Shown piece by piece: positions 20,071 to 54,857 of a stretch of DNA of 56,738 nt. The stretch's first letter is position 1. Every line of letters begins with the position of its first letter. The notes under the pieces were generated by a model that saw only the letters and a list, made by a program, of their open reading frames with translations, ran no database searches and was not told the DNA's origin. The stretch is taken from assembly GCA_002315195.1 (NCBI GenBank), contig DCGD01000118.1, positions 1-56,738 on the forward strand. Direction: 5' to 3'. A program made the translations under genes and the position numbers. Source of the DNA: Prevotellaceae bacterium UBA1787. Lineage in GTDB: Bacteria; Bacteroidota; Bacteroidia; Bacteroidales; Bacteroidaceae.

Positions 20071-20137
20071 CAGCCAAACAAATAAGAAATATAGTAACGT
20101 AAAAATATTGTTTATTTTTTTTTTAATTGTTGAGCGA

Positions 20138-23100: not shown

Positions 23101-25294
23101 TGAGGGCGACACCAACTGGGGACGCTACGCTTATCTCCTTGATGGTGATCCTTTCACCTATTTCATCTCCGTGCACAACCAGAAGCACATGAAGCCGGCA
23201 GAGTTCCATTACATCCAGGTGGATTTGAAGAGCAATCCAGTTTCCGCATTCCAGTTGAAATACAAGAACTCAACCAAGTGGCCGACTTTTGCCATCAAGA
23301 ATTTGGATGTCTATGCAACTAATGATACAACCGATGCAGGAAATTGGAAGTTGATAGAACAGTTCAAGAACATCTCCGAGAACGATGATCCTATCATTGA
23401 CATGGATCAGGCATATCAGTTCATCCGCTTCTCAGTATCCGCTACGGCCAACTCTTTGAAGGTTGGTGAAGGATATTCATTCTCTATCGGAGAATTCCAG
23501 TTATACGGTGCAACAAGAGACTTTGAAAGTCCAATGTGCCTATATACATCCATCGAAAACCTGAAAGAAAAGACAGACTATATGCTGGCGCTTTCAGACT
23601 CCTTGTTGCAAGTAGCAGCCAAGAAGGAAACAAAGGTTGAAGATGTGAATCTGCTCAGGGCAGCCATAGAGAATGTACTTGTATGCAGAAACAAGGGACT
23701 TCTCAATGAATTGCTCGCAAATGCTCCCAAACCTGAAGAATTCCGCGGTGATGGCACCCCTGGTGACATACCATCAGAAATCAAGGGCAATTATGAAACA
23801 ACTTATCAGGCAGCCAATTTAGCCGTGGCAGCCGAGAAGAGTTCCAGTGATTTGGAAAAAGCCGGAATGGATTTCTCTGCTTCAATTGAGGCTGTCCAAA
23901 ACGGTATCGTTCCTTTGACGGAAGGTTATTATTACATCATGAGTGCTTATGACGGGTTCAAGGCAAAGCAAGGTGTGGAAATGGCCATGTACCGCAACAA
24001 TGGTGAACTACGTTACTGTGCGCTTGATGAAACACAGGGTAAGTTTGTATTCAAGTTAAGGAAGATTGAGGAAGGCAAATGGAGCATCCAGAACTACAGC
24101 GACTACACTTATATCAACACCAGTGCAAGTGCCAAGAAGATTGAATGTTCCAATTTCCAGGAGAACGCTCAGCTCATAGCACCATCAGATAATTGGCTAA
24201 ATCGTTGGACTATTGCCAATACGGCCAACGAACAGCACTATGTACCAGACAACAACCAGTTCGGCACCACCGCTGATTACACCGTATTCAACATACCTGA
24301 CATTTACAGCAGTTACAATGCAAATGATCCAGCAAGCCCTGCTTATGGTTGGCAGACATGGTATTTCAAGCAAGTAACCGATGCTGAACTCATCGCCAAA
24401 CTTGAAAAGAGTTACAAGAGTGACCTTGACAAGCAACTCGAAGCACTCGTAGATACGGCTGCTCAAGTGTATGCTGAACAGTTCAACTATGATGTCAATA
24501 TGCAGAAGGCACTTATCACCAATGCCGATGACGATTCTGAAAATTGTCAGTTCTCTTCCAATGCGAAGATGCCGGATGAGGGTGAAACCAATTGGGGACG
24601 CTATGCTTACCTGCTTGATGGTGATCCGTTCACCTATTTCATTTCCGTACACAACCAGAAGCACATGAAGCCGACAGAGTTCCACTATATCCAGGTGGAT
24701 CTCCAAAGCAATCCGGTAGATGCATTCCAATTCGCATACAAGAATTCCACCAAGTGGCCGACATTTGCGATGAAGAACGTTGATGTATATGTTAGCAACG
24801 ATACAACCGACGCCCAGGGTTGGACACTCGTCAAGAACATCCAAAACATCACCGAAGACAATGTACCAGTCATTGTAATGGATAAGGCTTACCGTTACAT
24901 CCGCTTCTCGGTATCCGCTACGGCAAACTCCCTGAAGGTAGGTGCAGGTTATTCATTCTCCATCGGTGAGTTCCAGATTTATCCGGCAGAACTTAACCAG
25001 ACGTCATCTCCATACTATCGCATTGATGGCATGAAGGAACTCGCAGACGGCATGAAACAGTTGGCAGAAGAAGATCTTGAAATCGTCAAGGAACGCGCGA
25101 CCACTCAGGACAACATTGACGAATTGCGTGCGGCTATCGATGCAGTAAGAGAATTGCATGTCACCAGTGCAAAGGCAACGACGTCGGACGTAAAGGAAGA
25201 TGGCAAGATTTATGGTCTTGACGGAGTGGAACGCACCAAACTCGGCAAGGGCTTCAATATTGTAGATGGAAAAGTAATCAATGTTACCAAGTAA
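20138..25294 (+). CDS. Large secreted protein with three tandem ~495-residue modules
   Basis: 1718 residues from the ATG at 20138, which begins a signal peptide (MRKFFTLSTLLMICSMWCLHANA); the ATG 30 bases upstream is less likely. After an N-terminal segment (~25-210), three homologous modules start near residues 212, 710 and 1202. Each has (a) a short helical, FIVAR-like linker opening with RGDGTPGD-type sequence, (b) a beta-rich domain beginning PLTEGYYYIMSA and containing QHYVPDNNQFGTTADYTVFN, and (c) a discoidin (F5/8C)-like domain with SNAKMPDEG..NWGRY..LIDGDP and a closing YSFSIGEFQ strand. Discoidin domains usually bind glycans, so a surface adhesin or glycan-binding role is likely. No catalytic motif is seen. 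The last ~35 residues (IYGLDGVERTKLGKGFNIVDG) match the short tail common in secreted Prevotella proteins. Confidence 0.8.
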   Translation: MRKFFTLSTLLMICSMWCLHANAIWVKGDQIECDQFASGQKIVLENASTPDAYGMYWAGPEMHSGKITADCVFLLTTGPKDVYGEPTFYLRQSSSRLYVKGNSGSKKFTLVESRDDASTFTPYCAGDSAESNPSSTAIEGWDFHSVCFANRIVNTNGKVKTYWISNNYTQLQSVFREQRYTIAWNVYSVTEDRSKKAELGEYLEELDENTGFRGDNSPGDLPSELVKSYKDLISNAKKAYKDGNKSDAEYGKILQELKDTQADLKNHIIPLTDGYYYIMSAFDGFMQKQGVEMAMYRNNGELRYCKIDETDDKFVFKLTKQQSGNWAILNCKDFTYISTSGDRQKLGGTEKLEVEQIIEQATAWNGRWFISNTKNTQHYVPDNNQFGTTADYTVFNMPDIYGSYNSNDPNNTAYGWHTWYFKPVTNEEVLKKVQKNNKTEEDKQLQALCTEAKGLYKELFTYDIDTNKPLITEADDDDPEHCQYSSNAKMPDEGTTNWGRYKNLIDGDPATYFISLHNQKHWLPEDFHYLQADLKDNPVASFAFDFKKSTTWPTFIWQDLAIWATNDTTDASSWVLVDELKGLDTQAAGYMSPVVVMDKAYQYIRISVTYSPRELMVGKGYSFAVGELQFYPAALNETTSRYYKVSGMKEAADKMKTLIDAAQEKIDNHTTTAEDIKAMKDAIQAVKDADQATEFKKELDKAVNETSTDYRADGTPGDITNEVKEYLLKGIEDAKAVVNGEEKTAAEYKEAIAKFQAVRDSVKRAIVPLTEGYYYIMSAFDGFKAKQGVEMAMYKNNGQLRYCALDGSKAQFVFKLAQLPSGNWTIQNGSDYAFINTSASAKAIESSELPSAEQIIQLATNWNGRWTIANTANEQHYVPDNNQFGTTADYTVFNIPDIYGNYNANDPASQAYGWQTWYFKPVTDKELIAEIEKNAVSIEDKMIPVLADSAKNIFKEMLVYTISENGLITNADDESADCQFSSNAKMPDEGDTNWGRYAYLLDGDPFTYFISVHNQKHMKPAEFHYIQVDLKSNPVSAFQLKYKNSTKWPTFAIKNLDVYATNDTTDAGNWKLIEQFKNISENDDPIIDMDQAYQFIRFSVSATANSLKVGEGYSFSIGEFQLYGATRDFESPMCLYTSIENLKEKTDYMLALSDSLLQVAAKKETKVEDVNLLRAAIENVLVCRNKGLLNELLANAPKPEEFRGDGTPGDIPSEIKGNYETTYQAANLAVAAEKSSSDLEKAGMDFSASIEAVQNGIVPLTEGYYYIMSAYDGFKAKQGVEMAMYRNNGELRYCALDETQGKFVFKLRKIEEGKWSIQNYSDYTYINTSASAKKIECSNFQENAQLIAPSDNWLNRWTIANTANEQHYVPDNNQFGTTADYTVFNIPDIYSSYNANDPASPAYGWQTWYFKQVTDAELIAKLEKSYKSDLDKQLEALVDTAAQVYAEQFNYDVNMQKALITNADDDSENCQFSSNAKMPDEGETNWGRYAYLLDGDPFTYFISVHNQKHMKPTEFHYIQVDLQSNPVDAFQFAYKNSTKWPTFAMKNVDVYVSNDTTDAQGWTLVKNIQNITEDNVPVIVMDKAYRYIRFSVSATANSLKVGAGYSFSIGEFQIYPAELNQTSSPYYRIDGMKELADGMKQLAEEDLEIVKERATTQDNIDELRAAIDAVRELHVTSAKATTSDVKEDGKIYGLDGVERTKLGKGFNIVDGKVINVTK
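20771..25170 (+). repeat. Three tandem intragenic repeat units, ~1.48 kb each
   Basis: Units begin near 20771, 22265 and 23741 (periods 1494 and 1476 bases). Similarity is strong enough that DNA stretches are nearly the same, for example around 21270-21340, 22760-22830 and 24235-24305 (QHYVPDNNQFGTTADYTVFN). Units 2 and 3 are closer to each other than to unit 1, which suggests a second, later duplication. Confidence 0.85.
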
Positions 25295-34263: not shown

Positions 34264-35790
34264 ATGGAGCAACAGAAAATCCGCGTGCGCTTTGCGCCCA
34301 GTCCTACGGGACCTCTACATATTGGTGGTGTTCGTACCGCCCTTTTTAATTATCTTTTCGCCCGTTCTCATGGTGGAAAAATGATATTTCGGATTGAAGA
34401 CACCGACACCAATCGCTTCGTACCAGGCGCCGAAGACTATATTTTGGAAAGTTTTCGTTGGTTGGGCATACATTTTGATGAGGGCGTAAGTTTCGGTGGT
34501 GACAAGGGACCCTATCGTCAGTCGGAACGCAAGGAGATATACAAAAAATACGTGAAGTTGTTGTTGGACTCAGGCAAGGCGTATTATGCTTTTGATACCC
34601 CGGAAGAACTGGAACGTAAACGCGAAGAAACCCAAAATTTCCAATATGACGCAAAGACACGCCTATCCATGCGCAACTCTCTTAGTATGCCTGAGGAAGA
34701 AGTGGAGCGGCTGATTGCTGACGGTGAACAATTTGTTGTTCGTTTCAAAATTCAACCGGGTGTAGATGTCCATGTAAATGACATGATACGCGGTGACGTA
34801 AAAATCAATTCTTCCATCTTGGATGACAAAGTACTTTATAAGTCCGCAGACGAACTGCCTACATATCATCTCGCCAATATCGTGGATGACCACTTAATGG
34901 AAATTACGCACGTCATACGTGGAGAGGAGTGGTTGCCTTCAGCCCCCCTTCATGTGTTGTTGTATCGCGCATTCGGTTGGGAAGATACAATGCCGAGGTT
35001 CGCCCACTTGCCATTGCTGCTCAAACCAGATGGGAAGGGGAAATTAAGCAAGCGTGACGGCGACCGTTTGGGTTTCCCGGTATTTCCTTTGCAATGGCAC
35101 GACCCAAAGTCAGGTGAAATCAGTTCTGGTTTTCGTGAAAATGGTTATTTCCCCGAGGCTGTCATCAATTTTCTTGCATTGTTGGGATGGAATCCAGGAA
35201 CAGAACAGGAATTGTTCAGCATGGAAGAGTTGATACAACAATTCGATTTGAATAAATGCAGCAAGGCTGGCGCAAAATTTGATTTTGTTAAGGGAACGTG
35301 GTTCAACCATGAGTACATTCTTCGCAAGCGAGATGAAGAGGTAGCGCTGAAATTTGACGAAATCCTGAAAGCCAATGGTATTGACGAACCCATAGAACGG
35401 GTGGTCAAAGTGGTTGGAATGATGAAGAATCGCGTCAATTTCGTAAAGGAGTTGTGGCCGCTTTGCAAGTTCTTTTTCGTCGCTCCTGATAGTTACGACG
35501 AAAAAACCGTGAAAAAACGGTGGAAGCAGGATTCTCCGGAAACCATGGAAGCACTTGCCGAAATACTCGAAAGTCTTGACGATTTCAGTATTCAATGTCA
35601 GGAAGCCGCCGTCATGAAATGGATTGAAGACAATGGCCTGCATACTGGAAATGTGATGAATGCCTTTCGCTTGACCCTCGTCGGTGCGGGTGTAGGACCT
35701 CACATGTTCGATATTTCCGCTTTTCTTGGCAAGCAAGAAACACTTCTTCGAATGAGAAGGGCTATGAGTGTTTTGAAGGTGAAAGCATAG
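34264..35790 (+). CDS. gltX: Glutamyl-tRNA synthetase
   Basis: 508 residues, class I aminoacyl-tRNA synthetase that charges tRNA-Glu. The HIGH-type motif is [17 protein letters not shown] at the N-terminus and the KMSKS-type motif is [15 protein letters not shown] (~259), both in the form usual for Bacteroidetes. The catalytic domain holds the RIEDTDTNR and [13 protein letters not shown] segments. A helical anticodon-binding domain follows (~330-508). Length is normal. The waaA gene begins at the base after the stop codon, so the two are co-transcribed and possibly translationally coupled. Confidence 0.97.
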
Positions 35791-37059
35791 ATGATTTATC
35801 CCAAGAATACTATGTACACTTTTGCAATCTATATTTATATGGTATGCGCCAGTATTGCAGCCATATTCAACAAAAAGGCTCGTCTTATGGTACAAGGACA
35901 TCGCAAGGTGTTTGACGTATTGCGAAACAATATCGATCCAACGGCGAGATATATTTGGGTACATGTTGCATCATTGGGCGAATTTGAGCAGGGGAGATGT
36001 TTGATTGAGAAAATAAAGAAGACTTATCCTCAATATCGTATTATTTTGACTTTTTTTTCCCCCTCCGGCTATACGGTTCGTAAAAATTATCCATACGCAG
36101 ACATTGTATGCTATCTTCCATTCGATACGAAACGCAATGCCTCAAAATTCCTGCAGTTGGCTCGTCCCTGTGTGGCTTTTTTCATCAAGTATGAGTTTTG
36201 GCAGAATTATCTTACATTGCTCAGCGAAAGAGGTGTTCCTACATACAGTGTATCGAGTATTTTCCGTCCAGATCAGTTGTTCTTTCGCTGGTATGGAAAA
36301 CACTATTCCAATGTTCTGAAATGTTTTACACATTTGTTTGTTCAAAACGAAATTTCGCGTGACTTGTTGCGTGGAATAGGAATTGACAATGTGACAATTA
36401 CAGGAGATACGCGTTTCGATCGTGTCATTGAAATTGCAAATTCCGCGAAACGAAACGCAATATGCGATGTTTTCGTGAAGGGTCTTAAAGAAGATGAATA
36501 TTTGTTGGTGGCAGGTAGCACGTGGCCTCAGGATGAGAAGATTTTGTTTAATTATTTCAATCATCATCCAAAGCAGAAACTCATCATCGCCCCTCATGTT
36601 GTATCGGAGAAGCATTTGGATGATATTGACAATATGCTGGGTCGTCCCGCCGTTCGTTATTCATCGGCTTCAGTGGAAAGCGTGCATAAATCCGATTGCC
36701 TAATCATTGACAGTTATGGAATGCTCTCGTCTATTTATGCATACGGAAAGATGGCATACATTGGTGGAGGATTTGGTGCGGGCATCCATAATGTGCCCGA
36801 GGCGGCAGTACATGGTTTGCCTGTTGTGATAGGTCCAAGGAACAAGAATTTCAAAGAGGCTCGTGAACTCATTGAAATTGGTGGATGCTTCGAAATCAAT
36901 ACAGAACAGGATTACGAGGCGGTCGTGGAAAAACTATCGATGGACAAAGAATTTTGTCGAAAAGCAGGTAATGCCAGTGCTTCGTATATCAGAGATAATG
37001 CTGGGGCTGTTGAGCATGTTTTCAAAGCGATAAACTTTGTCAATGTACCAAGGATGTAG
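35791..37059 (+). CDS. waaA: 3-deoxy-D-manno-octulosonic acid transferase (Kdo transferase)
   Basis: 422 residues. A GT30-type glycosyltransferase that adds Kdo to lipid A precursors at the inner membrane. An N-terminal hydrophobic anchor (~8-27) precedes WVHVASLGEFEQG, whose Glu is the family's catalytic base, then FIKYEFWQNYL, VAGSTWPQDE and the GGGFGAGIHNVPEAAVHGLPVVIGP nucleotide-sugar segment (ends cited, ~326-350), all characteristic. The frame starts directly after the gltX stop; an ATG at 35812 (MYTFAIYIYM) is an equally good start and would place the membrane anchor at the N-terminus. The stop codon is part of a hairpin (37052-37075). Confidence 0.93.
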   Translation: MIYPKNTMYTFAIYIYMVCASIAAIFNKKARLMVQGHRKVFDVLRNNIDPTARYIWVHVASLGEFEQGRCLIEKIKKTYPQYRIILTFFSPSGYTVRKNYPYADIVCYLPFDTKRNASKFLQLARPCVAFFIKYEFWQNYLTLLSERGVPTYSVSSIFRPDQLFFRWYGKHYSNVLKCFTHLFVQNEISRDLLRGIGIDNVTITGDTRFDRVIEIANSAKRNAICDVFVKGLKEDEYLLVAGSTWPQDEKILFNYFNHHPKQKLIIAPHVVSEKHLDDIDNMLGRPAVRYSSASVESVHKSDCLIIDSYGMLSSIYAYGKMAYIGGGFGAGIHNVPEAAVHGLPVVIGPRNKNFKEARELIEIGGCFEINTEQDYEAVVEKLSMDKEFCRKAGNASASYIRDNAGAVEHVFKAINFVNVPRM

Positions 37060-37075
37060 GAATCCTTCCACATCC
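37052..37075. terminator. Hairpin overlapping the waaA stop, possible bidirectional terminator
   Basis: GGATGT-A-GGAA-TCC-TTCC-ACATCC folds with one bulged A. It lies between the convergent genes ending at 37059 and 37143. The T-tract is poor. Confidence 0.5.
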
Positions 37076-37142
37076 TAAAATGTTTTCGACCGAAATCATT
37101 GCGTTTTTCTTGACTGAATAGTTTGCATCAACAAGTTTTGTG

Positions 37143-37898
37143 TTACTTGATTATCAGAATTGGTGACAGGACAATCTTAATGGCTTTGCTGAGTTCGCTT
37201 TTGTCATTGGACTTAAAATTTTCCTGAACATCTTCAAAACTCAGATATGGTATTGAGTCCAATAACATTTTGACTCCTTTAGGTGTAATGTCGGAATTGC
37301 TGTTGACGAGTTTTAATAGAATGCTGATACCATCATAATAGAATCGCTTTTCTCCGCGTACAATCTCACTGTCCTTGGCGGAGAATAGGCAGTTGCGTAT
37401 TGCCTCTGAGTTTTCTGGGGTTATATCAATTTGATAGAGATGACATTCACCTTGGGGGATGAATTTTACGGTGTTTCCCTGTTGCAAGTGTTTTTTGCTC
37501 TCATCGTTCAAATTAATTACCAACACATAATTGTTGGCCAAGGCTGTAACATAATCAAAATAAGTAGGTTGTTGTTGGCGTTCAGTGGGAATACGTTGAG
37601 TCAGAATGTCTAATGTCATTCCTTCATCGAGGTTGTAGCCGAGGAGTTTGTTAACAATGTTTTTCCCTATGTTCAACTCGTTTAGGAATGCCGTGGTGGA
37701 TTGACAATGAGCATGGTTGGAAAGTTCCGTATTTTCAATTTCGTTTGTCAAAAACTTGCTCAGGTCATATTGAAAAGGAATGGCATCGTCTTTGATTACG
37801 GTTAGGCCAATCAAGCCTTTGTTAGAATCCGCCATAGCACGATGGTTAAATCCAAAGGACAACAATCCAATTAATATAGTGAATATTGCTTTTCCCAT
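37143..37898 (-). CDS. Exported protein of unknown function, downstream of the SbcC-like gene
   Basis: 251 residues with a signal-like N-terminus (MGKAIFTILIGLLSFGFNHRAMA). The mature part (~24-251) is mixed alpha/beta with no cysteine cluster, repeat or catalytic motif that I recognise. Segments such as GLTVIKDDAIPFQYDLSKFL and NYVLVINLNDESKKHLQ look like ordinary globular sequence. It starts 34 bases after the SbcC-like stop in the same direction with no promoter box, so it is probably the last gene of that transcript. An exported protein in a transcript with a DNA-repair-type pair is odd; it may instead be a remnant of the upstream envelope genes (DsbD, C1B peptidase). No function is proposed. 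Confidence 0.65.
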   Translation of the reverse strand: MGKAIFTILIGLLSFGFNHRAMADSNKGLIGLTVIKDDAIPFQYDLSKFLTNEIENTELSNHAHCQSTTAFLNELNIGKNIVNKLLGYNLDEGMTLDILTQRIPTERQQQPTYFDYVTALANNYVLVINLNDESKKHLQQGNTVKFIPQGECHLYQIDITPENSEAIRNCLFSAKDSEIVRGEKRFYYDGISILLKLVNSNSDITPKGVKMLLDSIPYLSFEDVQENFKSNDKSELSKAIKIVLSPILIIK

Positions 37899-37932
37899 TT
37901 TCAGACGAATTTGATTGTGAATACGTTATGCA

Positions 37933-40900
37933 TTATTTTTTTTTTAACAACATAGACAAAGATTTTCCTTTGTTGGAACTGTTGATTTGTATGTGTTGGG
38001 AAATACGACAGCATGTTTGTGAAGAATTATGGATTATACCTATCTTTTGCTGTGGGTTCTGAAGGTTAAGTAGTGTTTCTATTGCTATCTCAAGATTATC
38101 GTTGTCCAGTGTATCGAGTCCACCATAGATGAAATAACTCCCTATGGTATTGCCTTTTGCATATACGGAAGACAAGCCTAATGCGAGTGCAAGACTGATG
38201 GTGAAGGTTTCGCCTTGTGTTAGAGTATTGATGTTTCGAATTTGGTCCAACATGTCACGGTCTATGACGTCAAGGTTGAGGGATGAAGGTTCGCAACGGA
38301 GTCGATAACGTGAATTCATATCCGAAAGATGTTGATTTGCAAATCCTACGAGGACGGAAAACATGATAGTTTGCGTTATTTTCCTGAAAGTATTACCATC
38401 AGAACTTCCGATTGTGTCATTCAGTTTTTCCCAATTGTCCAATTGATGCTTCAATTTTTCTTTAATTGGTATATAATGTTCAATGTCTATAAGAGATTGT
38501 TGATGCAACTTAAGACTGAGTTTCTTTTCCTCTATTGAAATTTGGTTTTCTTTTAATTTGGATTCAATTTGAATCAGTTTGGTTTTAAGCACCGGTTCAC
38601 TTTCTTCGTTGTTTTCGTTGGGCATATCTGTATCCTGCCTCAGTTCAGCAATTCTCCTCTGTAAGGCTTCGCCATGATATTCTGCTCTCTGCAATTTGTC
38701 TTTTGCGCATGACAGCTCATTTCTAATGGCATTCCAATCATGTGGTTCATCGAAAAATTTTGCCAATTCAAAATACTGCAGTGTAGAGTTGTCTCTGTTG
38801 AATCGTGATATTTCAATGTCCAAATCAGAGCGTATTTTAAGCAAGTCATTTTCATAATCTTTTTTTTGCACCTCAAGAATGTTCAGTTCACCTTTGATGT
38901 TTTGGACAAGCGCGGATATTGTATTGTATGCGATGTGGCATTTTTGTTCCTCCTCTTTATTTTTTTGGATAATGTCTTTCATCTCTTGTTTTGTATCTTC
39001 CAAACCTTTGTCTCCAAAGATTTTTCTGAGTTCCATTTTGTGGTGTTCTATAGCAAGTTGTTTGGCGTTGATATTGCTTATTATTTTCCCGATGAGTTGT
39101 TGTTTTTCTTCGATATCGTGAATAATGACATTAATTTTTTCTTGAAGTCTGAATTCCTCAAATTCTTCTTCTTGAATATTTTTTTTGGTGTTATGCCATG
39201 TTTCAGCCGTTTCAGAAAGATATTGGATGAATGCTACATGATCTTTTGTCCATAACGTTTTCCAGAAGGGAATCGTAATGACGTTGTTCATCGAGTTTTG
39301 CAAACTTTCAAAATAAGTCTTGTATCCGTCAATGCGTTTTTCGATGTCAGATAGTTGGTTTTCCAATACTCCAATGTTGGTTTCGTATTTCGAAATTTTC
39401 ATTTTAAGGTCCAAAATTGCTTCTTCTTTTTTTACGATGTTGGTGTGCAGTTCGTTGATGGCTTCTTGGTGGCTATTGTATGTGTCCAAATCGTTCTGTG
39501 CTTTACAAATTTCATGAACTGAGTTCGCATGCAGTTGCTTAATGAGAATTTTACGGTTATTGCGGTTGATGGAGGGTGAACAACCGACAAAAGTTGTATT
39601 CATGTTTTCAAAGTCCTTCCAACCCATGATTTCGTTGGATAGGGTTTGCTCAATTTTCTTTTTTTCCTGGTAAGCCAGTTCCAATTGACCGATCTCCTTT
39701 GCCAGCGTTCTTTGCATTTCTTCCAATTTCATGCGTGATTGGTGTTCTCTTGACTGGATATTCTCGAATTCTATTTCTATAGCGGTCAGTTTGGGCAAGC
39801 GTTCATGTTCTGTTTCCGCATGATAAGGGTGGTGCATGCTTCCACAAATGGGACATATTGTTCCTTCTTTTAGTTTGTAACGCAATTCTGTGGTTTTTTC
39901 ACTCTGCCCAATAATATGTGTTGTCTTTCTAATTTCAAGTTCCTCGCAAAGAATTGCGTTTTGGGACTCTTGCTTTGCAATATCTTTTTGAAGTTGTTCA
40001 ATGACTCTTGTGCGTTTTTGGATTTCTTGTTTTTTTTCTTCCAGTTCATCGTTGCTGTCTTCAATGCGTTGCCATTGAAGTAAGGCACTTTTCGCTTTGT
40101 GTTGTGTGTTTTGCAAGCGATCCAACCTCAAAATCAGGTCTTGAACTTTTATGCCTTGGTTGGCTTGTATGTGAATGAGAAGTTCGTCTTTCAAAGTGTT
40201 GATTTGAGTATCCAAATGTAAAGATTCCTTTTTCAGTTTGTCTACCATGGATTTGTCAACTTGAATTTCTTGCCGTATAGAATCAATATTCTTCTTCATG
40301 GCAATTGTCTCCTTGTCGATTTCATACATTTTATCCAATTGCACTTTAACGTATTCTATCTGCTCAATCAATCTGCGATGAAGAGCCAAGGCATTGATTC
40401 TCTGTATGTCCTTTTTTTTCTTTTCAACTAGTTCCTTGAGCAGGTTTTCTTCTGCAGATAGATTTTGTTGTTTTTTTTGCAGATTTTCTTGATTGTTATC
40501 CCGGTCTGCTTTGTTAAGTGTTATATCTTCTTCAATGATTAGGATTTGTCCTTGCAAGTAGTGTCCCGTGTTGAAAAGTGCTTCTTTGATTTGGAATGCT
40601 TCCTCTGATTCTTCCAGACGGTTCAATGCGGTTTCAAGGCTGCTAGTTGCCTTTTGTAGGGCAATTGTTTGTGTTTGAAGAAGGTCACGTTTTTTTGCAA
40701 TTCTTTCTTCAAGATTGCCGATGTTACATTCAATGTTTTTTATTTGGAAATATGCTTTGCTGAAAACTTGTATAACGTCGAACCGTTCAAGCATTTGTTG
40801 TTTGCCAAACAAAGCATTGTATTGTTTTCGCGCTTCAGCGAGCAAATGCTTTTGTTTTTCATATTGTGCCTGAACTTTTTTGTACTTTTCGTGCCATTGC

Positions 40901-41667
40901 AATTTTCGTGTTATTTCTTTAATCGCTTCTTCATCGCACGTTTGTGCACCTTGCTCTAAGGTAAGGTCGTTCTCTATCTTTCTTAGGGTGTCATCGTCAA
41001 AAGTTCGTGTTGTAATGCCATTTATCGTTTCCAACACTTTGTTGTACTCAGCTCTTGATTTGTTTGTTTCTTCATATATTCTTTTAGAAATGTTTCCGTA
41101 CACTTCAGTTCCTGTCAAGTGTTCCAAAATAAGATATTTGTCATCTTGTTTTGATTGGAGGAAAGTGGCAAATTCTTTTTGAGCGAGGATCACTGTTTTT
41201 GTAAACTGATTGTAGGAAAGATGAGTGAGTTGTACTATAAGGTCGTCTATTATCTTAGCGTCAAATTCTTTCTTAGTGGGTTCAATCTGCCTTAATGTTC
41301 GTTTAATTGCATAGTTGGATGAATTGGAGAGTTTGATGCTCCAACTTGCTTCAAACACATTACCATTGATTAAGGAAAAAATGATGGAACAATTACCTTC
41401 AGAACTGCCCTTGTGTAAAATGTCGTTTACATTTTTCTGTGATGATGTTTTGAGGAGTTCGTTTTCTGTTTTCATAATAATTGTTCCATCAAAATAAGGT
41501 GTGCGGTTGTACAATGCCAGGCAAATGGCATCAATCAGAAAATCACTTGTGTTTTTTCCGATAATGGCGTAAAGCCCGGTGGATTTCAATGGCTCTTTTG
41601 TAAAATCAATAATCTGTTCTCCTTCGATTGAAGATATATTTCGTAGTGTAATTCTCTCTATTTTCAT
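37933..41667 (-). CDS. SbcC-like (Rad50 family) protein with degenerate ATPase motifs
   Basis: 1244 residues, uninterrupted. The N-terminus follows SbcC closely (MKIERITLRNISSIEG; IDFTKEPL; DAICLALYNRTP; VILAQKEFATFL; LEHLTGTEVYG). Two long coiled coils flank a zinc hook CPICG (C605, C608). The C-terminal lobe (~1145-1244) is also recognisable. But the ATPase motifs are lost. Walker A, usually GPTGAGKST, reads G37-K-N-T-S-D-F and is two residues shorter, with no GK[ST]. The signature LSGGE reads LTQGE (1149-1153). Walker B FIDEGFGTLD reads FIYGGLDTLD (Y1181, G1182). The switch ISH reads IHN (H1213, N1214). The Q-loop Gln and D-loop LD remain. SbcC normally uses ATP to control SbcD nuclease on DNA ends; this protein most likely cannot hydrolyse ATP. 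A tether or regulatory role is inferred. The region is visibly AT-rich. Confidence 0.88.
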   Translation of the reverse strand: MKIERITLRNISSIEGEQIIDFTKEPLKSTGLYAIIGKNTSDFLIDAICLALYNRTPYFDGTIIMKTENELLKTSSQKNVNDILHKGSSEGNCSIIFSLINGNVFEASWSIKLSNSSNYAIKRTLRQIEPTKKEFDAKIIDDLIVQLTHLSYNQFTKTVILAQKEFATFLQSKQDDKYLILEHLTGTEVYGNISKRIYEETNKSRAEYNKVLETINGITTRTFDDDTLRKIENDLTLEQGAQTCDEEAIKEITRKLQWHEKYKKVQAQYEKQKHLLAEARKQYNALFGKQQMLERFDVIQVFSKAYFQIKNIECNIGNLEERIAKKRDLLQTQTIALQKATSSLETALNRLEESEEAFQIKEALFNTGHYLQGQILIIEEDITLNKADRDNNQENLQKKQQNLSAEENLLKELVEKKKKDIQRINALALHRRLIEQIEYVKVQLDKMYEIDKETIAMKKNIDSIRQEIQVDKSMVDKLKKESLHLDTQINTLKDELLIHIQANQGIKVQDLILRLDRLQNTQHKAKSALLQWQRIEDSNDELEEKKQEIQKRTRVIEQLQKDIAKQESQNAILCEELEIRKTTHIIGQSEKTTELRYKLKEGTICPICGSMHHPYHAETEHERLPKLTAIEIEFENIQSREHQSRMKLEEMQRTLAKEIGQLELAYQEKKKIEQTLSNEIMGWKDFENMNTTFVGCSPSINRNNRKILIKQLHANSVHEICKAQNDLDTYNSHQEAINELHTNIVKKEEAILDLKMKISKYETNIGVLENQLSDIEKRIDGYKTYFESLQNSMNNVITIPFWKTLWTKDHVAFIQYLSETAETWHNTKKNIQEEEFEEFRLQEKINVIIHDIEEKQQLIGKIISNINAKQLAIEHHKMELRKIFGDKGLEDTKQEMKDIIQKNKEEEQKCHIAYNTISALVQNIKGELNILEVQKKDYENDLLKIRSDLDIEISRFNRDNSTLQYFELAKFFDEPHDWNAIRNELSCAKDKLQRAEYHGEALQRRIAELRQDTDMPNENNEESEPVLKTKLIQIESKLKENQISIEEKKLSLKLHQQSLIDIEHYIPIKEKLKHQLDNWEKLNDTIGSSDGNTFRKITQTIMFSVLVGFANQHLSDMNSRYRLRCEPSSLNLDVIDRDMLDQIRNINTLTQGETFTISLALALGLSSVYAKGNTIGSYFIYGGLDTLDNDNLEIAIETLLNLQNPQQKIGIIHNSSQTCCRISQHIQINSSNKGKSLSMLLKKK

Positions 41668-41859
41668 TAATAGTCAGATGTTTGGTAATTGTTAAGCGAT
41701 AACTCTTAGATGTTTTAGAATTAGGCTATCTTTTAGTTTGTTTCCATCTTGGTTTCTTTTTTGCAGTAATGTTGACTCCTTCATTGGTCATAACGATTGC
41801 ACGTCATACCTTATTAATGAAACCAAATTGTCGATTGCATGTCAGTCTTACTTTTTCGT

Positions 41860-43098
41860 TTAATCAATTTTTATTTTTGATTCTTCATCTCTTTTGATTT
41901 CGGCAAACAATTTTGAAATCTCATCGGGTATTTCTTCATTGTATCGTTTTTGATATAATGCTCTGACGATTTTGGCGGGATTGATTTTTCGCAAGTCCCC
42001 TAGATTGCTGATGTTTTCAGTGTCGCCACGTCTTTGCCCATTTGCATCTGTGCGAATTGCCCTGCATAGATGTATGGCTCTCTCTTTGGAAGCGTGTATT
42101 ATTAAATTGCTGTTTTTAGCATTGGCTGTCGTTTCGTTAAGTTTGATTTCCACATAAGGCCAGTCGGAGGTATCGGCATTATTGCGAATTTTAGAAAAAC
42201 TTGAGAGAGATTCGATGATTTGGTCGGATGTAGTACTACCTATTTCCGGGATGGAAATCAAACGGCGAAGCGGTGTGTATTCAATTTTGTTAATGCTGAC
42301 ACGCTTATCGACTATTTCAATTTTCATGACAGAATGTCCATAATCTTTTTCCGAAAACGACAAAGGAAGGATGCTTCCCCCGTAACGGATGTTTTCTTGG
42401 TTGTTGATGCATTGTTCTTTATGCAGAAGTCCAAGTGCCGCGTATGCGACGTCTGTTCCCAAATGATTTACATTGACGAAATTGTAATTTCCAATGTCGT
42501 TAATTTTTTGTTCTTCTATGGTAATTGTCGCCCCCGCTGCGTAAATATTTGCCATTAAAACTATAGGTGCATTTTGGTCGTATAGTTTCCGGGCTTTTTG
42601 TATCACTTGGTTGATAAACAATTGTGTACCTTCATTTGTGGTAACTCCTCGTTTCAAATCTTTTGTGCGCAGGAAAGGGATGGCTGCAACAACAGCGTCG
42701 CAATTGTTATTTGATTGAATCGGTATAATCAATTCTTCAAGTAGTGCTGTGTTTTTTTCATCGTATTGAACGGTACCTCTTACATGAATGTTCAGGCATC
42801 CAAGCGTTGATCTTAAGGCTTCCAAGTCCAAAGACGAGTCATGATTGCCTGCTGTCAGGACGATTTTCATCTTGGGGACGAAAGAAATAGCTTGGGTCAG
42901 AAAATTGAACAACAAACGCTTGGAAGATGCGGAAGGATTGGCATTGTTGAAAATGTTGCCATTTATCAGCAACGTATCAGGTACTTCTTGTTGAATGATG
43001 TCAATAAACCATTTGAAGAAGTGTTCAAATTCTTTTTCACGGTTATAACCATAAAATGTGTCTTCGAGATGCCAGTCGGAAGTATGTAGTAATTTCAT
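41860..43098 (-). CDS. SbcD-like (Mre11 family) protein lacking three metal ligands
   Basis: 412 residues. Alignment with SbcD runs end to end: LHTSDWHLEDTFYGY, LINGNIFNNANPS, LTAGNHDSSLDLEALR, AIPFLRTKDL, LMANIYAAGA, YAALGLLHKEQ, IRYGGSILPLSFSE and a C-terminal region. In active SbcD/Mre11 two Mn2+ ions are held by D8, H10, D48, the NH pair, H184, H221 and H223 (E. coli numbering). Here D8, H10, N85-H86 and the last His (H226) remain, but D48 is N48, H184 is N184 and the first His of GHxH is L224. The bridging aspartate is among those lost, so nuclease activity is unlikely. It lies 15 bases after dsbD and 192 bases before the SbcC-like gene; canonical sbcDC genes usually touch. The matching loss in its partner points to a shared, non-catalytic role. 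Confidence 0.88.
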   Translation of the reverse strand: MKLLHTSDWHLEDTFYGYNREKEFEHFFKWFIDIIQQEVPDTLLINGNIFNNANPSASSKRLLFNFLTQAISFVPKMKIVLTAGNHDSSLDLEALRSTLGCLNIHVRGTVQYDEKNTALLEELIIPIQSNNNCDAVVAAIPFLRTKDLKRGVTTNEGTQLFINQVIQKARKLYDQNAPIVLMANIYAAGATITIEEQKINDIGNYNFVNVNHLGTDVAYAALGLLHKEQCINNQENIRYGGSILPLSFSEKDYGHSVMKIEIVDKRVSINKIEYTPLRRLISIPEIGSTTSDQIIESLSSFSKIRNNADTSDWPYVEIKLNETTANAKNSNLIIHASKERAIHLCRAIRTDANGQRRGDTENISNLGDLRKINPAKIVRALYQKRYNEEIPDEISKLFAEIKRDEESKIKID

Positions 43099-43113
43099 GC
43101 TGCAAAATTGAAG

Positions 43114-45168
43114 TTATTGAATTGGTGCATATTTAGCCAACGCTTCTTTTAGGAACTGGAGGAACGAAGGAACATTCTCATCGAAGCCGTATGTTCTTGT
43201 AAGAGGGTGACCGGTATGGTCGACTGTTACATAAAACGGTTGAGCATTCGCCCCGAATTTTGTGCGTTGTAGATAACTCCACTTGTCACCGATGGTGCGC
43301 AGTTTGCGCTCCTTTCCATTTTCCATGACAGTAATCGGTTTGGGAAGTGCGGTTTTGTCATCTACATACAGTGATATTAATATGAAGTCGTTGTTTAGCG
43401 TTTTGGCTACAATTTCATCATTCCATACCGCCATTTCCATTTTTCTGCAGTTTACGCATCCATACCCGGTGAAATCAAGGAGTACCGGTTTCCCATTTTT
43501 AGTGGCATAAGCCATACCTGCTTCAAAATCTTTGAATTGTGGTTCAACGCTTTGTTTGCCCAGGCGAAAGTCCTGAGTATAGGTTGGAGGTGCGAATGCG
43601 CTGATGGCTTTTAGAGGCGCTCCCCATAGTCCGGGCACCAAATATATGGCGAAAGCCAGGGAACATAACCCGAGCATGAAACGTGAAACACTTGTATATT
43701 CTGTTTTTTCATCATTTGGAAAGTGCAATTTGCCGAGTAGATACCAACCGAGCAAGAAGAAAAGGACGATCCAAAGTGAGAGGAAGACTTCGCGGTCAAG
43801 GACGTGCCAACCGTATGTCAAGTCTGCTACTGAGAGAAATTTAAGAGAAAAGGCAAGTTCGATGAAACCCAAAGTTACTTTAATGACGTTCATCCATCCT
43901 CCGCCATGAGGCATTTTCTTCATCCAAGAGGGGAAGAGGGCGAAAACGCTGAAAGGCAAAGCAAGACTGATGGCAAACCCAGTCATTCCGACAAATGGGG
44001 CGAGAATATTGTTTTTTGTTGAAATTTCAACTAAGAGAAAACCTATGATGGGACCGGTACAGCTGAAAGATACAAGTACCAGTGTAAACGCCATTAGAAA
44101 CAGACTGAGCAAGCCCGTGAGGGAGTCGGCTTTGTTGTTCACCTTGTTTGTCCATGAAGAAGGAAGGGTGATTTCAAATGCGCCGAGAAAACTTGTCCCG
44201 AAGAGTACGAGCAAGACAAAGAAAAACAAGTTGAACACCGCGTTGGTACTCATGTCGTTCAATGCGCTTGCACCTTTAGAACTGAGTAACGTAATCAAAA
44301 GTCCAGTTCCAACATAAATGACCATAATTGACAAACCGTACATGATGGCGTCTTGGACGGCGCGTTTGCGGTTTTTGTTTCGGTGGAGGAAGAAACTTAC
44401 AGTCATGGGTATGATAGGCCATACGCATGGTGTCAACAATGCCAACAAACCTCCCAACAATCCCAAGCCGAAAATAATGAGCAGATTCTTGTTTTGGGTG
44501 GAATTGTTGTCAAAGGCGGATAACTCTTGGATAACCGGTTGCCATAACGAAGCCGAATCCAATGTTGATGAAGCAATTGATGCTGTTGCGCTGTCTGTTT
44601 TGGCAAGTTGGTTTGTGATGCCAAGAGAGTCAGAGGTTTTGTCTTGAGTTTGCGTTTCGGAAGTGTCTTCATTTTCATTGCCTGACTCCATGATGTTTTT
44701 TTTGTCGGGACCGTCTTTACCGCTGATGGAGAATTCCACTTGAGAAGGGGGAATGCAGTTCTCATCATTGCATGCTCCGTATTCGAGATACCCTTTGCTT
44801 TGGTAAGAAGGGGCGGTTAGTTTTAGAATCTGATGAAATTCCGCCGTGTTCTCAAAGAAACGTACGTTCATGTTAAATACTGGATCGAAACTCTCCATTT
44901 CGCTTGAAGCGGGTTTGAGTTTTCCGTCCAATTCCATTCCTTCATGCTGTTCAACATGCAATGATGCCGCAGTGGGTCCTCCGCTGAGTTCGGTGGAATA
45001 TACATGCCATCCTTCTTCTATCACACCTTTGAAAATCAATTCGATGTGAGCGTTGTCTATGCGTTTGGTCTCAACATTGAATTTCACGGGTTCTTGCAAT
45101 TGGCCTTTTATGCTGCCGTAGGGAATTACACAAAGCAGACACAGAAAGATACGGTAGAAGTGTTTCAT
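43114..45168 (-). CDS. dsbD: Thiol:disulfide interchange protein DsbD
   Basis: 684 residues with signal peptide MKHFYRIFLCLLCVIPYGS. Three parts are visible. First is an N-terminal DsbD-alpha immunoglobulin-like domain (~25-150) with the cysteine pair in YGACNDENCIPP. Next is an eight-helix membrane domain (~230-520) with the functional cysteines in LLTPCVWPIIP and SFSCTGPIIG. Last is a thioredoxin domain (~545-684) with active site FTGYGCVNCRKME. All redox cysteines are present, so it should carry electrons from cytoplasmic thioredoxin to the periplasm. It lies 43 bases after the C1B peptidase gene and 15 bases before the SbcD-like gene, probably on one transcript. An asparagine/threonine-rich linker (~155-225) separates the first two domains. 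Confidence 0.92.
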   Translation of the reverse strand: MKHFYRIFLCLLCVIPYGSIKGQLQEPVKFNVETKRIDNAHIELIFKGVIEEGWHVYSTELSGGPTAASLHVEQHEGMELDGKLKPASSEMESFDPVFNMNVRFFENTAEFHQILKLTAPSYQSKGYLEYGACNDENCIPPSQVEFSISGKDGPDKKNIMESGNENEDTSETQTQDKTSDSLGITNQLAKTDSATASIASSTLDSASLWQPVIQELSAFDNNSTQNKNLLIIFGLGLLGGLLALLTPCVWPIIPMTVSFFLHRNKNRKRAVQDAIMYGLSIMVIYVGTGLLITLLSSKGASALNDMSTNAVFNLFFFVLLVLFGTSFLGAFEITLPSSWTNKVNNKADSLTGLLSLFLMAFTLVLVSFSCTGPIIGFLLVEISTKNNILAPFVGMTGFAISLALPFSVFALFPSWMKKMPHGGGWMNVIKVTLGFIELAFSLKFLSVADLTYGWHVLDREVFLSLWIVLFFLLGWYLLGKLHFPNDEKTEYTSVSRFMLGLCSLAFAIYLVPGLWGAPLKAISAFAPPTYTQDFRLGKQSVEPQFKDFEAGMAYATKNGKPVLLDFTGYGCVNCRKMEMAVWNDEIVAKTLNNDFILISLYVDDKTALPKPITVMENGKERKLRTIGDKWSYLQRTKFGANAQPFYVTVDHTGHPLTRTYGFDENVPSFLQFLKEALAKYAPIQ

Positions 45169-53061: not shown

Positions 53062-54759
53062 TTAGAAACTCACTTTCCTTGTTTCCTTTCCGTCGTTGAT
53101 GAACAGTACCCTATGTTGGAGGAGCATTTCTTGAAGGTTCAGTTCCCCGCGAGGGCATTGCTTGAGCAACCGTCCATTGGCATCGTATATCGTCACGATG
53201 TCTGCGGCATCGCTCTGTTGGAGGTCGGGAAGCGTGATGGCGGAAATCCATCCGGGGTTGTTTTCCTTTATGAGTTCCAACGTACCGTTGTTCTTTTTCA
53301 GTATGTAACTTGTGTTGATGGAGTCGGTGGCGCAAGAAGGTTGCCAGGTGGTTTCATTGTTGTTTTTTGAACCTATGTAAATGCGGTATGTTCCATTGGC
53401 AAGGCTGTTGGTGGAAATGTTCTTTGAGTTGAGGGAGATGCCGCTTGCTATTGGAATCTTTGCGTTCATGATACTCAAGGCAAATTGTTCTTCATCGTTG
53501 TCAGCAACAAGAGCTATTTTTCCATTGAAATCTTCCAGTTCAAGATTGTATAAAGTGGTCTTAAATTCAAGTAGGACGGTATTCTGAATATGAGCGGGAA
53601 CTTTTTGGACGGTGATGTCCAATGAATTGCCGAGTGTCATGCGTGAAGCAGGCACGCGTGCGGGTTCCTCAGGATTTATGTAAATCATTTCGTGACTTGA
53701 AGAAAATTCGAATGTTTGAGGATTGAGCAGAGACAAGTCATAATACCCATCGTCCAAGCCTTCCCATCCCCAATTTACCGACACCAAGCCTTCCTCATCG
53801 TAACCATCAAGAATAAAGGCATGCCCTCCGCCCGTGTAGGCGTCAGCACCGCAGTATATCAGGGGATGCTCTTCTGACAAGAAACGGTAAATCATGTTGT
53901 TCCAATCTTTTTTGGGGTAGGATAGATGATGGAAATATTGGACGTTGTTGTAGCCGAGGTATTTGATAAGTCCCAAGGCTGAATGGCAGAAGGAAGTACT
54001 GGTTCCAGTGTCTCCATATTGGGAATAAAAGGCAATGCCGCAGTGCGCCATCAATTTCGCTACGGCGTTGCGCGCTTTCTCCGAACTGGATTTATTGTAT
54101 GAATCCGTCATGGAGGCGAAGTCGAACTCAACGCCTTCGAATTTTGCGGACACGATCCCTCCCTCAACCGTTTCACATTCGTACGACACGGAATCTTTCC
54201 CGCTTACGGAGGCGGAATAATATTTCAGTACTTGAGCGGTGGCGGTAGCGGTACATCCAGTAAGGCAGGGTCTGCCTGTAACAATCGAACGCGGGCATAG
54301 ATTGTTGTAGGGAGTGTCTTGTCCCCATTTCGTTTGTATCAACGAAGCCACTTTGGGTTCGGCATCATCAGGGATGACATTCGTTTCCAATGTTCTGCTT
54401 TCGTTGGTCATGTGTTCCGTGACCTTAACTGCTTGTTCCAACCACCAGTTGAAACTTTCAGAGTGTTCTGCGCTGAAAGTACTTTTTGAATATCCGAGTA
54501 CGGGACGTAGGTTGTCGTCGGTCGTCATGATGACAAAACCATCGCCATCCGAGGGTCCATAAACGCAAACGGAGGGTGAGGGTGAGGCAAGGCAAACGGG
54601 TGCGGTTTGAGTTGTGGAGGATTGAAAAGGTTTGCTGGAAAACACTTTGCCTCGCAGCGTATTCGCCGCAATGTTCTGTAATTCTTGTATGGTGCGTTGG
54701 TGTGCGTTGGTTGAAAGTACAAGTGAAAAAAGAAAGATGAAGAGGAGGAAATGTTTCAT
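53062..54759 (-). CDS. Secreted C10-family cysteine protease (streptopain-like)
   Basis: 565 residues from the ATG at 54759 (MKHFLLFIFLFSLVLSTNA, a signal peptide); an ATG at 54777 would add six residues. A Spi-type propeptide (~20-150) ends near NVIPDDAEPKVASLIQTKWGQ. The peptidase domain has Cys in CLTGCTATATAQVLKYY (~176) and His in GGHAFILDGYDEEG, followed by VNWGWEGLDDGYYDLSLL, the hallmark of SpeB and of interpain/periodontain-type enzymes in Prevotella and Porphyromonas. A C-terminal beta region (~385-565) ends with IYDANGRLLKQ, a form found in secretion-related tails. It is a likely extracellular protease that degrades host proteins. It lies 98 bases downstream of the ABC permease. 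Confidence 0.88.
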   Translation of the reverse strand: MKHFLLFIFLFSLVLSTNAHQRTIQELQNIAANTLRGKVFSSKPFQSSTTQTAPVCLASPSPSVCVYGPSDGDGFVIMTTDDNLRPVLGYSKSTFSAEHSESFNWWLEQAVKVTEHMTNESRTLETNVIPDDAEPKVASLIQTKWGQDTPYNNLCPRSIVTGRPCLTGCTATATAQVLKYYSASVSGKDSVSYECETVEGGIVSAKFEGVEFDFASMTDSYNKSSSEKARNAVAKLMAHCGIAFYSQYGDTGTSTSFCHSALGLIKYLGYNNVQYFHHLSYPKKDWNNMIYRFLSEEHPLIYCGADAYTGGGHAFILDGYDEEGLVSVNWGWEGLDDGYYDLSLLNPQTFEFSSSHEMIYINPEEPARVPASRMTLGNSLDITVQKVPAHIQNTVLLEFKTTLYNLELEDFNGKIALVADNDEEQFALSIMNAKIPIASGISLNSKNISTNSLANGTYRIYIGSKNNNETTWQPSCATDSINTSYILKKNNGTLELIKENNPGWISAITLPDLQQSDAADIVTIYDANGRLLKQCPRGELNLQEMLLQHRVLFINDGKETRKVSF

Positions 54760-54857
54760 GTGATGTATTTTAGCCATATGTGATGTTCATTTGGTACAGT
54801 AGGTCACCCGGAGAAATGCAAGCCGGAATTAGTATGATTTGGTCTTTTCACCATGCT

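Follow-up and report, generated by a model that had tools for sequence, protein, structure and literature searches.

The window analyzed here, a 56,738-nucleotide stretch of contig DCGD01000118.1 from Prevotellaceae bacterium UBA1787, encodes an SbcD/Mre11-like protein and, downstream of it, an SbcC/Rad50-like protein (Table 1). Neither sbcD nor sbcC contains a stop or a frameshift, as the first-pass annotation of this DNA had stated. The gap between the two genes resembles that of G020 (182 bases) and those of L002 and L157 (both above 100 bases), while at many intact loci the two frames touch or overlap.

Table 1. Features of the sbcD-sbcC locus in the window
Feature	Position	Strand	State or remark	Basis
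SbcC/Rad50-like protein, 1244 aa	37933..41667	minus	catalytically dead heads, with coil and hook retained	NCBIfam, motif alignment
Walker A, lost	41524..41559	minus	GKNTS--DFLIDAI instead of GxTGxGKSTLLDAI (2-residue deletion, no GKS/T)	motif alignment
Q-loop Gln163, kept	41179..41181	minus		motif alignment
Zinc hook, kept	39829..39855	minus	CPICGSMHH, 9/9 hook columns	motif alignment
Signature, lost	38209..38223	minus	LTQGE instead of LSGGE	motif alignment
Walker B and loop after it, lost	38104..38136	minus	YFIYGGLDTLD instead of LFIDEGFGNLD (Asp-Glu to Tyr-Gly)	
Switch His, lost	38023..38037	minus	IIHNS instead of IISHT	motif alignment
Intergenic gap sbcD-sbcC, 192 bases	41668..41859	minus		
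SbcD/Mre11-like protein, 412 aa	41860..43098	minus	3/8 metal/catalytic columns replaced, fold predicted intact	
SbcD H224 to L	42427..42429	minus		residue columns
SbcD H184 to N	42547..42549	minus		residue columns
SbcD D48 to N	42955..42957	minus		residue columns
gltX, kdtA, 251-aa protein	34264..37898	plus, plus, minus	same gene order next to the intact sbcDC at L193 of G337	

Catalytic residues are replaced in both partners. The motif columns agree with the first-pass annotation on the three SbcD positions and on Walker A, Walker B and the signature, and likewise on the retention of the zinc hook and the Q-loop Gln. Its statement that the switch His is missing holds for the canonical position; the window reads IIHNSS where IISHTx is expected, with one His displaced by a single residue, so this particular loss depends on the alignment. 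The window SbcD additionally has N51 in place of D, and it retains D8, H10, N85, H86 and H226, five of the eight ligand/catalytic columns. These residues were checked in 120 SbcCs and 120 SbcDs (window included; in each case the 120 best matches, out of 1071 for SbcC and 651 for SbcD), whereas the motif alignment took in 48 of the 120 SbcCs and 79 of the 120 SbcDs, 60 of the 79 being compared. Replaced SbcC residues occurred in the window and in P0022 only, with P0006 and P0021 ending before the C-terminal motifs, and replaced SbcD ligands in the window alone, P0170 having a deletion. Relative to its sister, the window SbcC keeps 7 of 20 conserved catalytic columns, 91 of 122 other conserved head columns and 41 of 48 conserved columns of coil and hook. 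In the window, catalytic columns were lost in excess of other head columns (p=0.0011), and the p values of this comparison were 0.015 in G004, 0.07 in G020 and 0.43 in P0022; retention in all head columns versus coil and hook gave p<0.001 in G004, G020 and P0022 and p=0.037 in the window.

NCBIfam models assign the two proteins to SbcC and SbcD. The best NCBIfam match of the window SbcC is SbcC PRK10246, at 207 bits (cut-off 750), and TIGR00618 gives 120 bits (cut-off 478.5). These missed cut-offs are not discriminating, because the intact long-form SbcCs P0002, P0004 and P0005 also fall below both, with 289-310 bits for PRK10246 and 219-237 bits for TIGR00618. Two Pfam models, AAA_23 and SbcC_Walker_B, are present in P0002, the intact sister, and absent from the window SbcC. 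By contrast with the two SbcC scores, the window SbcD exceeds the TIGR00619 cut-off (165.9 bits versus 77.65). Alignment with E. coli SbcC covers residues 1-279 and 1027-1231 of the heads, the middle piece being weak, and alignment with E. coli SbcD covers residues 1-252. An AlphaFold2 (AF2) model of the window SbcD, built from 46 sequences with a pLDDT of 90.4, contains the phosphoesterase core together with the C-terminal strands and helices; its best solved match in Foldseek is E. coli SbcD in the SbcCD structure 6s6v (E 1.2e-23, TM 0.71, 422 alignment columns with gaps). The dead SbcD may still be able to sit on an SbcC head.

Among the matches listed, the closest relatives of the pair are P0002 for SbcC (53% identity) and P0122 for SbcD (55%), which agree in the length of their longest contig (19,614 bases), are probably encoded on one contig and have every motif. 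At locus L193 of G337, the 251-aa protein, kdtA and gltX come after an intact sbcD-sbcC, which is the gene order of the window, with identities of 32% for the 251-aa protein, 54% for kdtA and 77% for GltX (over the 151 aa compared). Because both the closest relative and the same locus in G337 are intact, the window pair is, as judged from sequence, an ortholog at the ancestral sbcDC locus that has gone dead, and neither an added paralog nor a sequencing error. The first-pass annotation had proposed that close orthologs with intact motifs would point to an error of sequencing or a local mutant. Such orthologs exist, but at 53-55% identity they are far too distant for the differences to be sequencing errors. 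A sequencing or assembly artefact would, moreover, have to produce many in-frame replacements across two genes with no frameshift, in a protein that was counted on two contigs and that has relatives with the same kind of loss; nothing in favor of an artefact was found, and we assign it a negligible probability. As to the neighboring genes, the window GltX is 76-77% identical to its best full-length relatives, one of them from a genome labelled Alloprevotella, and the 251-aa protein (window 37143-37898) has no Pfam match and is conserved 3' of sbcC in G337.

Loss of the catalytic residues is recurrent. Eight further full-length long-form SbcCs are dead or partly dead: P0022, and seven that were revealed by searching with a profile built from nine SbcCs (G020, G004, G344, G345, G348, G338 and G343), the one of G343 only partly, as Walker A and the switch His are retained. 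That of G020 lies on a 2.92 Mb contig. The genus of G001, which holds the window's nearest genome-level relatives, contributes six of its 19 genomes to this set (G004, G338, G343, G344, G345 and G348). All eight proteins keep the CxxC hook and a full-length arm. Four of them (G020, G338, G343 and P0022) still have the Q-loop Gln, which G004, G344, G345 and G348 have lost, and the replaced residues vary between dead lineages. The first-pass annotation had called for a comparison of motif columns among homologs; they are intact in the closest relatives, and neither the repeated loss nor the large headless branch described below had been foreseen there.

In a coil-region tree of 45 rows, a hand-picked subset of a 96-row tree that omits two L111 pieces and duplicate loci, the four dead rows occupy four separate positions, and the approximately unbiased (AU) test rejects their union in one clade (p 2e-69). 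In a tree of 23 rows from the group of the window, five state changes are forced, and a common clade of its seven dead rows other than G020 is rejected (AU p 9e-158). Within this tree, the window and G348 are each paired with an intact SbcC, whereas G004, G344 and G345 (rows L004, L190 and L191) form one dead clade of three species (100/100) with the intact G001 as sister; G338 and G343 branch nearby, their order unresolved, and G020 lies outside. If catalysis was never regained, these trees point to at least six full-length losses of SbcC catalysis, comprising at least five in the window's group and that of P0022. The persistence of the dead state across the three-species clade speaks against a short-lived pseudogene. 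For the dead pair L190/L191, nonsynonymous divergence (dN) in the N-terminal head was 0.415 versus a synonymous divergence (dS) of 2.575, which is near saturation, and dN was 0.349 in the coil and 0.40 in the C-terminal head, with dS saturated in both. Separately, the sbcC of L111 (G033) is long-form and otherwise intact, with one stop codon interrupting it.

The state of the SbcD partners suggests an order of events. Partners were tallied for eight of the SbcCs, including the window and excluding P0022, whose partner was unseen. SbcD ligands are broken in four of them (window, G020, G345 and G348) and complete in the other four, namely G338, G343, G344 and G004, the last represented by an N-terminal piece that holds all eight ligands. 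No intact SbcC beside a ligand-broken SbcD was found among the loci compared. Given that half of these eight SbcCs have an SbcD with all ligands and that the converse case was not found, SbcC seems to lose function before SbcD. The complete partners in these four lineages, along with the five columns kept in the window SbcD, would also suit a pair that still acts on DNA through an altered site, with SbcD using one metal and SbcC binding nucleotide in a different manner. However, SbcD has lost Asp48 and two His, SbcC has lost its nucleotide motifs as well, and the replacements are lineage-specific with no new conserved site, which makes this explanation highly improbable.

To compare rates, changes found in the dead row only were set against changes found in its intact sister only, for heads and for coil plus hook (Table 2). 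Heads of the nine dead rows have evolved about 3-12 times faster than those of intact sisters, whereas the coils have evolved at 0.7-1.8 times the sister rate in eight rows, all but the window. The head bias of the window is pronounced (p 4e-5), and four intact controls have none (p 0.33-0.88). If all of the excess change in the window were neutral, 11-14 stops would be expected, versus none observed (P ~1e-6 to 1e-5); the head excess alone predicts 5-6 (P 0.003-0.007). Given this deficit, translation through both window proteins has probably been under selection for much of the accelerated period, and the view of the first-pass annotation that the open frames are not mere luck gains probable support.

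Table 2. Relative-rate counts, as changes in the dead row only : changes in the intact sister only
Dead row	Head	Coil + hook
Window	100:10	136:55
G348	163:14	130:71
G344	103:17	94:87
G345	110:19	88:93
G004	116:14	78:74
G338	122:20	116:76
G343	95:24	83:121
G020	110:21	85:89
P0022	104:35	139:102

The SbcC profile also picks up proteins that match the arm alone, within approximately positions 184-1101 of its 1250. In the genus of G006, arm-only open frames of ~860-1050 aa occur in 7 of 58 genomes, and a 670-aa hookless form in three more (10/58 in total). In the genus of G012, arm-only matches are present in 113 of 121 genomes, 107 of them across most of the arm (two in two pieces) and six partial (G097, G099, G146, G164, G169 and G177); sequences were inspected for 17 of these loci. 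Eleven of the 121 genomes encode a canonical short-form SbcC in addition to the arm-only protein, a possible under-count with at most five candidates scored per genome, and a canonical SbcC is likewise present in G062 and G018. Across 149 genomes sampled from the whole order of G012, with at most four candidates scored in each and canonical copies possibly under-counted, G012 alone had an arm-only match; 90 of the 149 yielded no SbcC match, and the complex seems often absent there. The headless rows tabulated retain 0-3 of 145 conserved head columns, except L143 and L144, which retain 12 and 21. Four headless proteins were scanned against Pfam, with no domain found, and the few matches that carry a source name, among 120 of 450 matches, are called hypothetical protein, SbcCD ATPase subunit or chromosome segregation ATPase. 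An AF2 model of a headless protein is entirely helical, the helices being broken at conserved positions, and contains no substitute for the head, at a low predicted TM score (0.31). A genome search for SbcD spanned 24 genomes: among 12 headless genomes tested it was not found in eight (G012, G013, G023, G043, G037, G017, G042 and G041), G054 and G057 had weak matches below the cut-off, and an SbcD accompanies the canonical SbcC of G062 and G018. None was found at the headless loci examined.

The headless proteins are under purifying selection. Both hook cysteines are invariant across 44 aligned sequences, and the coil dN/dS is 0.04 by NG86 and 0.084 by YN00 in one close pair (L015/L016) and 0.07-0.11 by NG86 in three pairs with dS near 2, one further pair being saturated. 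Intact coils gave 0.09-0.19 in six pairs for comparison, with a seventh saturated, and the three hookless pairs 0.22-0.27 (NG86). Headless proteins require five changes on both best trees, two of which are forced by well-supported branches in the 45-row tree, and a single headless clade is rejected by AU tests, though the long branches L143 and L144 are involved. Genes named by eye from sequence differ around the loci, with a hisS-like gene at 10 of 16 headless loci of the genus of G012 and nrdD-like or nrdG-like genes adjoining the L138-L142 group, which agrees with separate origins. The headless coil-and-hook protein, at L015:9803-12493 and in the genus of G012, also lies near HTH-regulator-like, AlkD-like and purA-like genes, likewise named by eye. 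The 670-aa form, an open frame in three genomes (L145:5980-7965, L146:5983-7983 and L147:579-2591), has lost both heads as well as the hook-distal stretch of its arm. A direct series from dead to headless proteins through P0022 and L145-147 (94% in the SH-like approximate likelihood ratio test, SH-aLRT, of a quick tree) was dropped, as the grouping is absent from the 45-row tree.

The coexistence of canonical SbcC with arm-only proteins in those 11 genomes and in G062 and G018 is what could be expected if the dead proteins were regulators or dominant-negative partners of an active SbcCD whose genes lie at another site of the genome; the first-pass annotation had also put forward the regulatory role. 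The seven other dead-SbcC genomes (G020, G348, G344, G345, G338, G343 and G004) do not bear this out: no additional SbcC was found in them, nor another SbcD scoring over the family cut-off, although the assemblies may be incomplete. All SbcC candidates were scored in these scans, save in five genomes at 11 of 12-14. Furthermore, the window pair occupies the ancestral locus and hence is no duplicate. We regard a regulatory role of this type as very unlikely.

A more substantial alternative is slow decay, whereby SbcCD has become dispensable and is under ever weaker selection, and the window pair would be on its way out, its frame still open by chance. Several observations lean toward it or weaken the case for a retained function. 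Unlike those of the other dead rows, the window coil is accelerated ~2.5-fold relative to its sister, and the window SbcD 2- to 4-fold (64:29, or 99:27 with another outgroup), both of which fit a partly relaxed constraint. The pair is low in G+C, at 36.6 and 39.0% for the two genes versus 38.6-47.2% in eight other window genes. The C-terminal Pfam domain SbcD_C reaches a sub-threshold 15 bits in the window SbcD (cut-off 24.4), versus 29.8 bits in P0122. The contrast in retention between head and coil is mild in the window, as p is 0.15 when non-catalytic head columns are compared with the coil, and the rows of the rate test share sisters, five of them using L001, and are thus not fully independent. 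The frequent absence of an SbcC match in the order of G012 points in the same direction. Against decay stand the missing stops, the complete hook columns, the full-length dead genes of the three-species clade, with dN below dS, and the purifying selection on headless relatives. Taken together, we consider decay an unlikely account of the window pair, albeit one with some force.

The explanation that we find likely is that the window holds the same-locus sbcDC whose two enzymes became pseudo-enzymes, the arm being kept in a tether-like role that is independent of ATPase and nuclease activity. A particle resembling SbcC2-SbcD2 would most likely still assemble, given the predicted Mre11 fold of SbcD and a hook that would dimerise SbcC via zinc, whereas the ATP-driven clamp cycle and DNA cutting would both be lost. 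Selection would then act mainly on the long antiparallel coiled coil and its zinc hook, which would form a homodimer, some tens of nm in size, that serves as a tether or scaffold, and the heads would persist as folded, non-catalytic end pieces. The selected non-catalytic complex proposed in the first-pass annotation is supported in so far as both partners are dead, catalytic columns are preferentially lost and dead SbcCs persist across species; its regulator variant is not. We infer that the window pair itself is still functional.

The same shift has been repeated in the family, with SbcC catalysis seemingly lost before that of SbcD, and in other lineages the heads have disappeared while coil and hook remain. 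A broader proposition is that selection in these Bacteroidota acts on the arm of long-form SbcC as its unit, and not on the nuclease-ATPase engine, which would have been stripped time and again (at least six times in full-length proteins, provided that catalysis was not regained, and with at least two headless origins) in the order ATPase, nuclease and whole heads, with pseudo-SbcCD pairs such as that of the window and a genus-wide arm-only protein as the outcome; we hold the odds on this proposition to be even. If true, a coiled-coil rod joined by a zinc hook would have a structural role of its own, as a tether or scaffold for the chromosome, a repair site or the cell. Such a rod would measure tens of nm, as SMC-like arms do. 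The Rad50 hook has been characterized as a constitutive dimerisation module (PMC6969161). A role of arm and hook beyond joining the heads is difficult to probe while the arm remains fused to the heads, and here nature has separated them repeatedly. Related bacteria offer intact versions, versions with a dead ATPase and an intact nuclease site, doubly dead versions and headless ones, and the presence of an arm-only protein in nearly all genomes of one genus makes an arm-only function directly testable.

Elsewhere in the window, a 1728-aa frame at 20108-25294 has no Pfam match, and positions 53062-54777 encode a C10-family peptidase with an I69 (Spi-type) inhibitor domain. Local G+C is 38-39% at 36001-44000 and 43-50% in the remaining 4-kb bins.

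E. coli SbcCD (6s6v, 7yzo and 6s85) shares with the window pair homologous SbcD and SbcC heads, the SbcD fold and the zinc hook. Unlike it, the window lacks Walker A, Walker B, the signature, the switch His position and three SbcD ligands, and its SbcC has 1244 rather than 1048 aa. Measured against the SbcCD/Mre11-Rad50 family as a whole, the window has the adjacent homologs, the Mre11 fold and the CxxC in a long coil, and lacks the full SbcD ligands and the SbcC motifs. The intact long-form SbcCD is nearest in identity (P0002/P0122) and in gene order (G337 L193) and, unlike the window, possesses all catalytic motifs. The headless coil-and-hook proteins (L015, P0241-P0360 and L138-L144) have a homologous hooked arm, whereas the heads of the window SbcC are full-length though dead. 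Archaea-specific SMC-related proteins (ASRPs) likewise carry a zinc hook between coils and are reported to keep Walker A and Walker B, unlike the window (PMC9389158). Two other identities were considered and rejected: ASRP for the window SbcC, on a weak NCBIfam match (20 bits versus a cut-off of 300), and Lamassu LmuB, with only 32.1 bits and an SbcD-like partner without a PADLOC match. The B-subunits of polymerases provide a parallel for SbcD, as they have an Mre11-like phosphoesterase fold that lost catalysis and was kept as a structural part, with no paired Rad50-like arm. Among the matches listed in the open-licence literature, none describes a bacterial SbcC that is catalytically dead or headless.

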